Below, in pieces: positions 13,983 through 17,285 of a DNA stretch of 64,000 bases. A model generated the notes under the pieces. The model saw only the letters and a program-made list of their open reading frames with translations, made no database searches and was not told the origin of the DNA. The stretch spans positions 20,682 through 84,681 of the forward strand of contig PXSA01000040.1 of NCBI GenBank assembly GCA_003023565.1, written 5' to 3'. A program made the position numbers and the translations under genes. Position 1 is the first letter of the stretch; every line of letters starts with the position of its first letter. Origin of the DNA: Halobacteriales archaeon QS_9_68_17. Its GTDB lineage: Archaea; Halobacteriota; Halobacteria; Halobacteriales; Natronoarchaeaceae.

Positions 13983-14688
13983 ATGGAACGCGGGTACCGG
14001 GTCGTGCTGGTCGCCCTCCCCGTGGGGGGCCGCCGGCTGTGCCGGCACCGACCCCAATATCGACGCCGGGTCCGACGACGGGGCGAGCGCGACGACGACC
14101 GCCGCGAGCGGGAACGCCACCGACGGAACGCTCGGGGTCCATCTCATCAGCGTGGGACAGGCCTCCACGATGCTGGTCGTCGGCCCATCCGGCGAGACGA
14201 TACTCGTCGACACCGACGATCACGGCGACGACGGGGAGTACGTCCTCGACTACCTCCGCGACCGGACCGACTACCTGGTGACGACCCACGCCGACGCGGA
14301 CCACACCGGCGGCCACGCGGCCGTCATCGAACACTACGAGACGCAGTCCGGCGGGATCGGCGCGGCGTACGACCCCGGCATCGCGGCCGGCACCGCGACG
14401 TACGACGAGTACCTCGACGCGGTGGAGGACTACGACGTGACGCTGTACGAGACGAGAGCGGGCGACGCGATCCCGATGGAGGGAGCGACTGTCGACGTGC
14501 TCGGTCCTCCCGACCCGTATCCCGACGGTGGCGCGTGCAACGAGAACGATGTCGTCCTCCGCGTCGCGTACGGGAACACGTCCGTCCTCCTGCCGGGCGA
14601 CGCCGAGGACCATCAGGAGACGCATCTCGTCGACACCTACGGTGACGACCTGAACGCGACGCTGCTCGCCGCCAGGCGAGGACGATAA
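13983..14688 (+). pseudogene. MBL-fold (ComEC-like) lipoprotein, frameshifted near the lipobox and 3' truncated
   Basis: MERGYRVVLVALPVG is in one frame; AAGCAGTDPNIDAGSDDG...GVHLISVGQASTMLVV...THADADHTGGHA is in another; shift lies at the G6 run ~14031. C-terminus stops at LNATLLAARRGR*, where an HHGS-type motif is expected. Confidence 0.75.
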
Positions 14689-14701
14689 TCCTTGGCCGCC
14701 C

Positions 14702-14725
14702 AATAATTTCGCCACGGAAATTATT
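14702..14725. repeat. perfect inverted repeat AATAATTTC-GCCACG-GAAATTATT
   Basis: 9-bp arms, 6-nt spacer, read directly. Confidence 0.9.
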
Positions 14726-14727
14726 AG

Positions 14728-14742
14728 TAACGTACTACGTTA
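14728..14742. repeat. perfect inverted repeat TAACGTA-C-TACGTTA
   Basis: 7-bp arms, 1-nt centre, read directly. Confidence 0.9.
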
Positions 14743-14768
14743 ATTTATCCGAATTATTAAGATAAATT
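14742..14768. repeat. perfect inverted repeat AATTTATC-(11 nt)-GATAAATT
   Basis: 8-bp arms, read directly. Confidence 0.85.
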
Positions 14769-14799
14769 CATATTACTATGCGTAGAGGTATGAAGTGCA

Positions 14800-14937
14800 A
14801 TGTCATCCACTAACTCACTCAAGGCATATCTCGCAGACCACCCGCGAATGATCGGCGCGCTGTTTACGATCCTGATGTTGCTGTCGCAAGCCGGTACCGT
14901 GGCAGCCGGTGGCGTGCAAGCCCAACCGGGTCCATGA
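14800..14937 (+). CDS. 45-aa single-TM small peptide, convergent partner of CHAT protease (resembles haloarchaeal DUF7503-type peptides from memory)
   Basis: ATG 14800: MSSTNSLKAYLADHPRMIGALFTILMLLSQAGTVAAGGVQAQPGP*. Not in supplied track (<60 aa). Hydrophobic helix followed by small-residue AGTVAAGG. Confidence 0.75.
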   Translation: MSSTNSLKAYLADHPRMIGALFTILMLLSQAGTVAAGGVQAQPGP

Positions 14938-14938
14938 A

Positions 14939-17047
14939 TTACAGGTCGAGATCGGAGACTGGACCGTTCCACTGAAGTTTCGATCCGAACTTCACCGGGA
15001 ACTGGTGAGAGGAGAGATACTCTTGGAGTTCAGCGCTATTGAGTTCTATCGACTCCGTTTTGCCCGGGAGAAGCACGTTCTCGTCGAAACCTTCTACCGT
15101 CGGAGTTATATAAGATCCTAGCTGGTACTCTCGGGTCGGATACGCCGTGATCTGAAGTTCGAACGTCTCATCATCTGTTGGATTGACGTCACAGACTATC
15201 GCCGCCCCTCCGTCTGACTGAGCCATATCAGCACCGCCGTCGCCGACGATGAGATACTGGTCGCCGATCGAGGTGTGGTCTCGAACGAGCTGCAATGCTC
15301 CGCGAAGCGGAAAACCGACGTGAAGGAGACGCGCCAGTGCCTCGCCGATTTCGACCGCCTGTTCATTAACGACATCGCTTAGCGTGCCGACGCCGCCGGT
15401 CGCACCGCGCTCCGCGAGCGCCTTTGCCTGATTGAACGATCGGCAGGCGTTGAGGAGGAACACATCGATATCGACGGTATTGAGGTCTCTCACGTCCAGT
15501 TTACCGTCGGCACACCGCAATCCATTCGGCGTCGCGTGACCGATGTAGTGAAGAAAGTCGTGGCCGCCATGCTGCAATACATCAGACAACTGTTCTATCG
15601 ACAGTTGAGTGTGCGATTCGACGTTGAATGGGAGTTCCTCGCGACTGCCGTAGACACCGTCAAGCGAATCGAACTCGTCGATCATCCGCTCGTCGTTGCA
15701 GACGACTGTGATGTCGATCCGGCTCGTCCGTTCGTCTCTGGACAGGCGATTTTCGAACGCTTCGACGGTTGCTTTGGTCGCACCCCTGGGAATGTGGTTT
15801 CCGAACCAGGCATGTTCGATGGACTCGTTCGTTGTTTCCGGCTCAACCAGAACATTAGAGTCCGTCGCTTTCTGGGCGTCAGAACGCAACAGCGCTTTCG
15901 AAGCGTCTTGATTACCAGAGTCAGATATGCCTCCGGGCGACCGTGAATACGTCGGCGCGGGCGTCCTGGGTTGAGAGATCCGTGTGCCGCGTGGTTCTCG
16001 AACGATTCCGAGGTCGTTGACCACGAACGGGAGCGGCCGGATACCGTCGGGATTCGACGGGATATGAGCCGTGAGACACCAGTCCGGAACGTACTCAGTC
16101 ACGAGGTCGTACGGAACCTTGAGGTACTGCTGGATTTGCTCTTGCAACGGTCGACCGTGAACTTCCTCCAGATCGAAGGGGAGGTGAGGTTCGACCATCT
16201 GTCGCTCTTGCAGTTCTATCTGGTACATCCCCTCGGTCCGGAGGATGCAATCCAGGAAGAAGATCTGTTTGAGGACGCGGGCAACCTCATCCTCGAACCA
16301 CCGCCGACTCGCGAGTTCCCACTCGAACCCACCGGCGGTTTCGATACGCGGCACCTCGCCGGGCACCACGTCGGCACCGAGGTAAAACGCCAACGACGAG
16401 ACGGTGTAGATGTGCCTGTACTTGGGCGGGACGTAGATCCGGATACCCGTGTTCGGCGTTTCGAGCTCGTCGGGTATGTGGAGCTCCTCGCCGCGTTCGA
16501 GAAGCGGCGGGTGGCCCCTGAGGGTGGGATACGACCGCTCGCACGACGCCGTCTTCAGCGCCGATGGAAGGGCGCTGACGGCGGTCATCAGGTCGTGTGG
16601 GTCGTCGGGAACCGTGATCGTGGCAGCGGGGTTCTTGTGGTACGACCGCGATCCGAAGTCGATCACTGGTGTCCCTCCGAACTCGATGTATAGGTGGTTG
16701 GCCCCGGTCTCGACGGTCATCGAGTCGGCGACCCGAAAGTATATTTTTATCGGTCCGCCCATATCGACGCTGTACGAGCCCGAATCGAACGAATACTGTT
16801 CGTGTGAGTTTATCTTAGAGAGGAAGTCACCGTCCGAATTACGGATGCAAACGCCGTCGAGCCTGTCGAAGTACATCCCATCCGTCTCGAACCGGCAGGC
16901 GTGCGTTACGGGGAAGTTGAACCTGTCCGTGTCGATCCTCGTCGGTTCGACTGGACCCGCGGTCCGAAACGTCAACTGGCGCTGTTCGACGCGGTCGACG
17001 ATCCTGACGCCAGTCGGATCGTCCGTCGCGGAGTAATTGATAGTCAT
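14939..17047 (-). CDS. CHAT-domain (caspase-like, clan CD) protease with long uncharacterised N-terminal region
   Basis: HDFLHYIGHATPNGLRCADGKLDV (His codon 15536-15538, residue 504) and VDIDVFLLNACRSFNQAKALAERGATGGVGTL (Cys codon 15443-15445, residue 535). Confidence 0.88.
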   Translation of the reverse strand: MTINYSATDDPTGVRIVDRVEQRQLTFRTAGPVEPTRIDTDRFNFPVTHACRFETDGMYFDRLDGVCIRNSDGDFLSKINSHEQYSFDSGSYSVDMGGPIKIYFRVADSMTVETGANHLYIEFGGTPVIDFGSRSYHKNPAATITVPDDPHDLMTAVSALPSALKTASCERSYPTLRGHPPLLERGEELHIPDELETPNTGIRIYVPPKYRHIYTVSSLAFYLGADVVPGEVPRIETAGGFEWELASRRWFEDEVARVLKQIFFLDCILRTEGMYQIELQERQMVEPHLPFDLEEVHGRPLQEQIQQYLKVPYDLVTEYVPDWCLTAHIPSNPDGIRPLPFVVNDLGIVREPRGTRISQPRTPAPTYSRSPGGISDSGNQDASKALLRSDAQKATDSNVLVEPETTNESIEHAWFGNHIPRGATKATVEAFENRLSRDERTSRIDITVVCNDERMIDEFDSLDGVYGSREELPFNVESHTQLSIEQLSDVLQHGGHDFLHYIGHATPNGLRCADGKLDVRDLNTVDIDVFLLNACRSFNQAKALAERGATGGVGTLSDVVNEQAVEIGEALARLLHVGFPLRGALQLVRDHTSIGDQYLIVGDGGADMAQSDGGAAIVCDVNPTDDETFELQITAYPTREYQLGSYITPTVEGFDENVLLPGKTESIELNSAELQEYLSSHQFPVKFGSKLQWNGPVSDLDL

Positions 17048-17085
17048 TGCTGATGTACCTGCAGATATATCCCAATTGCAGCCCA

Positions 17086-17094
17086 GCGATAAAA
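17086..17094 (-). promoter_or_regulatory. candidate archaeal TATA box for the CHAT gene
   Basis: Reverse strand CTTTTATCG ~40 nt upstream of the ATG at 17047. Confidence 0.4.
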
Positions 17095-17285
17095 GACTAT
17101 TCCAGACATGAAGGGCCGGTGTCAGAAGCCCTGTCCTATTCGTATCCCCGGCTACCGACCGCGATGGCTCTCATCGAGCCGTTTCGTTAGAAGTTGTGCG
17201 TGGGTGATGTCCGCGAAGGGAGATCACCCGCATCGACTTCGGCGGCAGGGCCGTCAGTTCCGGTGGACTGTGTCCGCCAATGCGA

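Follow-up and report, generated by a model that had tools for sequence, protein, structure and literature searches.

What does a 45-residue hydrophobic peptide do beside a large cysteine protease whose gene ends one base away from its own, and are the two products partners? The question is raised by a locus in the window, the whole stretch of 64,000 nucleotides of haloarchaeal DNA that was analysed. The peptide gene (14800..14937, forward strand) encodes MSSTNSLKAYLADHPRMIGALFTILMLLSQAGTVAAGGVQAQPGP and stops with TGA at 14935-14937; the protease gene (14939..17047, reverse strand) encodes 702 residues and has its stop at 14939-14941, so that the genes are convergent and only base 14938 separates the stops. 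Both open reading frames are present in the sequence as an earlier, sequence-only reading of this DNA had described them, a 45-residue peptide and a 702-residue protease with stops one nucleotide apart. To the left of the pair is an open reading frame with a metallo-beta-lactamase fold and partial ComEC-like similarity (14152-14688, forward strand), and to the right an HVO_2718-like transcription regulator related to aMBF1 (PF24250; 17497-18042, forward strand); neither neighbour is conserved.

Searches of Pfam, NCBIfam and PADLOC give no match for the protease, and profile searching against PDB sequences likewise yielded no domain; PF12770, the Pfam CHAT model, does not match the window protease, and the best relative scores 12.6 bits against a cut-off of 24. 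An AlphaFold2 model built from 90 homologues (pLDDT 90.5, pTM 0.90) nevertheless permits an assignment. On the evidence of Foldseek and the modelled secondary structure, a caspase-like CHAT domain is placed at about residues 400-606 (15230..15850, reverse strand, with approximate boundaries), and its best Foldseek match is SAVED-CHAT (8tl0, E 8.8e-8, about 20% identity), with separase (5fby, E 1.2e-6; also 5fc2, E about 1e-6) and gingipain RgpB likewise matched, all three at E 1.6e-5 or better, and Craspase (8d9g) at a weaker E of 1.2e-3. His504, within IGHATPNG (codon 15536..15538, reverse strand), and Cys535, within LLNACRSF (15443..15445, reverse strand), are conserved, each in 88 of 90 non-redundant relatives, in the contexts H-Y-I-G-H and L-N-A-C respectively, and the CHAT-type dyad proposed earlier for these residues is thus borne out by conservation and by the caspase/CHAT fold of the model. 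We file the protein by structure and dyad, not by PF12770 membership, because the Pfam model is not reached; on the predicted structure it is a CHAT/caspase-family protein with a caspase-like fold and a His-Cys dyad, and given the conservation of the dyad it is likely to be an active enzyme.

The N-terminal half of the protease (residues 1-365; 15953..17047, reverse strand), delimited from the model and the alignment, has no domain match. It is well folded in the model, with a beta-rich part (1-146), an alpha/beta part (150-345) that carries the nearly invariant motif RSYPTLRGHPP, and a disordered linker (366-391) following it, and searches of Pfam, NCBIfam and PADLOC identified no known sensor domain there. 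The protease has no visible signal peptide and is described as soluble. No relative was found among IMG/VR viral contigs; the protease is carried by 27 haloarchaeal plasmids, so the gene can sit on plasmids.

The peptide is a full-length member of PF24335 (DUF7503), matching positions 1-42 of the 42 in the profile with 77.4 bits against a cut-off of 27 (hmmscan E 6.2e-22), and the likeness to DUF7503 that the sequence-only reading had suggested proves correct. One proline is invariant in all 173 unique sequences of the family and is followed by Arg or Lys in 170. After these comes a short hydrophobic stretch, which in the window peptide covers residues 17-36 (14848..14907, forward strand), reaches a peak Kyte-Doolittle hydropathy of 1.78, and ends in V34-A35-A36, a signal-peptidase-like A-x-A site. 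Position -3 is V or A in 168 of the 173 and position -1 is A or G in every one, with a freer -2; this is the classic signal-peptidase-like pattern, and we predict that DUF7503 is an export- or membrane-type peptide. Beyond the site is a variable tail of 6-9 residues, the least conserved part of the peptide (GGVQAQPGP in the window; 14908..14934, forward strand), which terminates in Gly-Pro directly at the stop codon in 163 unique members and without it in ten.

Fifteen of the 16 synonymous GGN-CCN hexamers are in use for the Gly-Pro end, and the constraint therefore acts on the protein; a DNA-level constraint is ruled out as its cause. Gene overlap is also ruled out, since the same Gly-Pro end is present over the whole range of gaps, which extends from overlapping genes to distances above 100 nt. 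Across the peptide family pN/pS is 0.26 over 290 close pairs, which are not independent of each other, indicating purifying selection, with separate values of 0.21 for the body and 0.36 for the tail, again from non-independent close pairs. The full-length PF24335 match and the purifying selection together rule out a chance open reading frame, and the protein-level conservation that the sequence-only reading had named as a check is found. An AT-rich box 27-45 nt 5' of the peptide start (TTATTAAGATAAATTCATATTA in the window; 14754..14775, forward strand) is conserved in a comparison of 131 family members that covered upstream regions of peptide genes only, and its spacing suggests that the peptide gene may have its own leaderless transcript. 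At five loci (L027-L031) and their relatives an inverted repeat resembling CCATTGG...CCAATGG is situated between the box and the start codon of DUF7503, and is perhaps a putative operator.

DUF7503 is present in 343 of 400 Halobacteria genomes (86%), usually in one copy but in two to six copies in 82, and the 243 genomes examined from the phylum's other classes yielded none; a protease homologue is present in 374 of the 400, a count that includes a related subfamily in which no partner was found. All 77 near pairs recognised from printed coordinates are convergent, as are DUF7503 and CHAT in 99 of 100 cases among the fetched loci (those remaining of the best 150, and additional loci) and at 61 of the 62 DUF7503 places in an unselected set of 46 genomes. 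Overall, 175 of 177 distinct DUF7503 open reading frames are tail-to-tail with CHAT, every linked pair being convergent, with a median stop-to-stop distance of 7 nt and an overlap of exactly 4 nt in 23 pairs. The exceptions have the CHAT gene about 32 kb from DUF7503 on the same contig (L102), and about 1.3 kb downstream of DUF7503 on the same strand (L179). In two genomes of one genus a single fetched locus contains two complete pairs (L107, L139), and in genome G376 two DUF7503 copies of equal score are found, one beside an intact CHAT gene and the other beside a broken, frameshifted one (L063 and L064).

As a control, the neighbours were compared across 48 genera, each represented by one locus. 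CHAT is beside DUF7503 in all of them, and neighbour families other than DUF7504 occur in 12 of the 48 or fewer, the remaining larger neighbour clusters being shadow open reading frames inside CHAT. Simple regional synteny is ruled out as the cause of the linkage by this control: the other neighbours vary while the pair stays, and the comparison thus shows the two genes to be kept together by selection across Halobacteria. We consider the CHAT protease and the small peptide to be very probably partners. The earlier proposal of a two-component module, for which the association was to be counted across genomes, gains support from the near-universal pairing together with the protein-level conservation.

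DUF7504 (PF24336) is the only other frequent neighbour: in 42 of 106 pairs its gene immediately precedes CHAT in the same orientation (for example L124:3112-3846). Its model, from an alignment that left out three plasmid-derived rows, has a pLDDT of 90.8 and is similar to the N-terminal domain of KaiC. The DUF7504 consensus shows no Walker A motif, and as modelled the protein is a degenerate RecA/KaiC-like one. The window pair has no adjoining DUF7504, and five DUF7504 genes score over the cut-off elsewhere in the same genome.

Natural variants of the partner help to show which part of it matters. In six genomes of one genus (g43) DUF7503 is absent, and a soluble repeat protein occupies the same place with a 4-nt overlap with CHAT. 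An example is MSERDSGTVTAADETRQSTTADGNGGGISGP(YTADGNGGGISGP)n, the proteins having 4-13 units in total; the near-identical 13-residue units correspond to the tail (..ADGNGGGISGP), and their number varies between species (4, 5, 7, 7, 10 and 13; L151 and L163-L167). Within any one protein the core ADGNxxGISGP does not vary, one first unit excepted, and it is written with differing codons. The repeat form has a maximum hydropathy of -0.26 and no signal peptide; its N-terminus resembles that of the ordinary DUF7503 of sister genomes, which starts MSETDSGTVA. CHATs of this genus with membrane-type and repeat-type partners are about 83% identical, and no specially diverged or remodelled region was found between them. 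Two genomes of a second genus (g74) have a different hydrophobic peptide facing CHAT, ending PGP or SGP, and in a third (g53) each genome has some 12 CHAT-like matches (G129, G354), a lineage-specific expansion in which several paralogues each face their own diverged hydrophobic peptide (loci L194, L197, L203, L205 and L209-L212); most of these peptides end in Gly-Pro, and two have it slightly internal. In one genome both CHATs are without the dyad, with the Gly-Pro peptide intact beside them. The genome of the window itself has a second, divergent CHAT-fold gene (L218; G000:C32:112169-113971) with 35% identity and an intact dyad, and no peptide partner was recognised for its subfamily. The scaffold is changed or lost in these variants and the Gly-Pro tail is mostly kept, which points to the tail as the functional element they have in common and away from membrane insertion. 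The comparison shows a short Gly-Pro-ended tail as the constant feature of most partner forms, with a hydrophobic scaffold that can be changed or lost.

The reading that we favour, at a probability of about 0.4, is that the peptide is a dedicated substrate or ligand of CHAT, recognised through its tail, and for this we infer the following mechanism. In most species the partner would be made as an export- or membrane-type precursor with its hydrophobic segment and A-x-A site; some stress would activate CHAT, with DUF7504, where adjacent, perhaps relaying activation in some species; and active CHAT would recognise the tail of the partner and cut or process it around this tail, so that the partner is changed or released. 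The repeat form would offer 4-13 near-identical tail units per molecule. In Craspase, TPR-CHAT (Csx29) cuts Csx30, the partner dedicated to it, close to the C-terminus, and the position of the cut is unconserved between orthologues (PMC11106740); a variable cut region in DUF7503 is therefore no objection. Covariation between the tail and the active-site region (481-570) is weak, with a partial r of 0.16 compared to 0.03 +/- 0.05 for random column sets, of which the maximum in 200 is 0.18, and an N-terminal control region has peaks of similar size elsewhere; this signal is not relied on in support of the reading. There are several further points against it. The A-x-A site and the preceding Arg/Lys predict a tail outside the cell, away from the protease; ten of the 173 partners have no Gly-Pro end; dyad-less CHATs beside an intact Gly-Pro peptide are more readily explained if the partner binds CHAT than if it is cut by it; and a protein-level partnership needs no conserved convergent orientation, although descent could explain the orientation. 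The earlier suggestion of a pro-peptide or a substrate or regulator of the protease is supported in general terms only.

Several other explanations are less probable. A possible though unlikely one is that the peptide acts like securin, as an inhibitor or membrane tether and not as a substrate, its Gly-Pro tail docking on CHAT and holding it inactive or at the membrane until stress releases it. The conserved free C-terminus, the near-universal paired gene with its own conserved promoter box, the replacement by a soluble multivalent form in one genus, and the retention of the partner beside dyad-less CHATs are all consistent with this role, but the predicted topology again puts the tail outside the cell, the internal Gly-Pro units of the repeat form would need processing to acquire a free C-terminus, and in Craspase, the prokaryotic example cited here of CHAT with a dedicated partner, that partner is a substrate (PMC11106740). 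Another explanation is an exported signal, in which signal peptidase frees a peptide of 6-9 residues (GGVQAQPGP in the window) and CHAT is the protein that responds once the peptide is taken up, an arrangement like that of Gram-positive receptor/peptide gene pairs. The -3, -2 and -1 preferences described above, a least-conserved tail with a fixed Gly-Pro end, and repeats reminiscent of multi-copy pheromone precursors point this way, although the repeat form has no signal peptide and CHAT is unlike any known peptide receptor, and we regard this explanation as distinctly unlikely. Very doubtful is its extension to a near-universal haloarchaeal signalling circuit in which a caspase-fold protease has the variable, Gly-Pro-ended exported peptide as its cognate ligand; were it true, it would be a caspase-linked peptide signal in Archaea, tandemly multiplied in one genus.

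Caspase-fold proteases are associated with cell death, and a small hydrophobic peptide adjoining one could be a membrane-active toxin that the protease releases or activates, in the manner of a gasdermin-like executioner. This had been one suggestion of the sequence-only reading, and as a general function it is unsupported because a soluble repeat protein replaces the peptide in six genomes, with CHATs that are retained at about 83% identity; furthermore the peptide is far too small for a gasdermin, there is no PADLOC match, and a gene found in 86% of Halobacteria, usually in one copy, departs from the patchy distribution of defence and toxin genes. We judge a toxin to be improbable. A further explanation is control at the level of RNA, in which a strongly promoted peptide transcript extends into the 3' end of the CHAT gene and represses this gene through antisense or transcriptional interference, and the peptide is secondary. 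The uniform convergence of the 175 linked pairs, their median gap of 7 nt with 23 exact 4-nt overlaps, and the promoter box conserved among the upstream regions of peptide genes agree with such control. However, the pN/pS of 0.26, the free choice of Gly-Pro codons and the differing codons for the same repeat core reflect constraint on the protein and therefore argue against a role for the RNA only, and the orientation may be inherited; this explanation is the most improbable of those considered.

No described function was found for either the CHAT protease or the peptide. The PF24335 entry in Pfam gives none, and a literature search, with subscription papers and preprints outside its scope, found no paper on DUF7503 or on a CHAT domain with Haloferax or halophilic archaea, and no description of the Gly-Pro tail or of the pairing with CHAT. 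A caspase-fold protease missed by Pfam, with a dedicated peptide partner, proves to be near-core throughout an archaeal class, and two linked families without known function, DUF7503 and DUF7504, acquire a testable role. The exchange of a membrane-type partner for soluble tail repeats is a natural experiment indicating which part of the partner is important. Caspase-like activity has been measured in Haloferax volcanii on substrates cut after Asp (LEVD, VEID, IETD) with the gene unnamed (PMC3615174). H. volcanii carries DUF7503, and we hypothesize a link between the haloarchaeal CHAT and this orphan activity, for which CHAT would be a concrete candidate gene.

Other proteases with a dedicated partner are known, and the haloarchaeal pair can be compared with several described systems. 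Gasdermin executioner modules differ in that the partner here has 45 residues and is a soluble repeat protein in six genomes, and the -3/-1 pattern of secreted peptide pheromones is present in DUF7503 and absent from the repeat form. The CHAT domain has its best structural match in SAVED-CHAT (8tl0), but family searches found no SAVED domain and no CBASS or CRISPR genes, and the N-terminal half is unmatched. No TPR or SAVED sensor was found in that half, and no CRISPR or CBASS partner appears as a constant gene over the 48 genera. Separase and securin are similar in being a caspase-fold protease and its dedicated partner, with a structural match by Foldseek but no sequence match, and whereas securin is an unstructured pseudo-substrate, the haloarchaeal partner is predicted to be an export- or membrane-type peptide. 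Craspase of type III-E CRISPR systems, with Csx30 (PMC11106740), also combines a CHAT protease with a dedicated partner; no Craspase or Csx30 domain was found here, the haloarchaeal partner of 45 residues having no Csx30 match in family searches and no gRAMP/Cas7-11, TPR array or CRISPR context being found with the pair. The two also differ in distribution, Craspase being encoded at rare loci whereas the haloarchaeal pair is near-core in Halobacteria.
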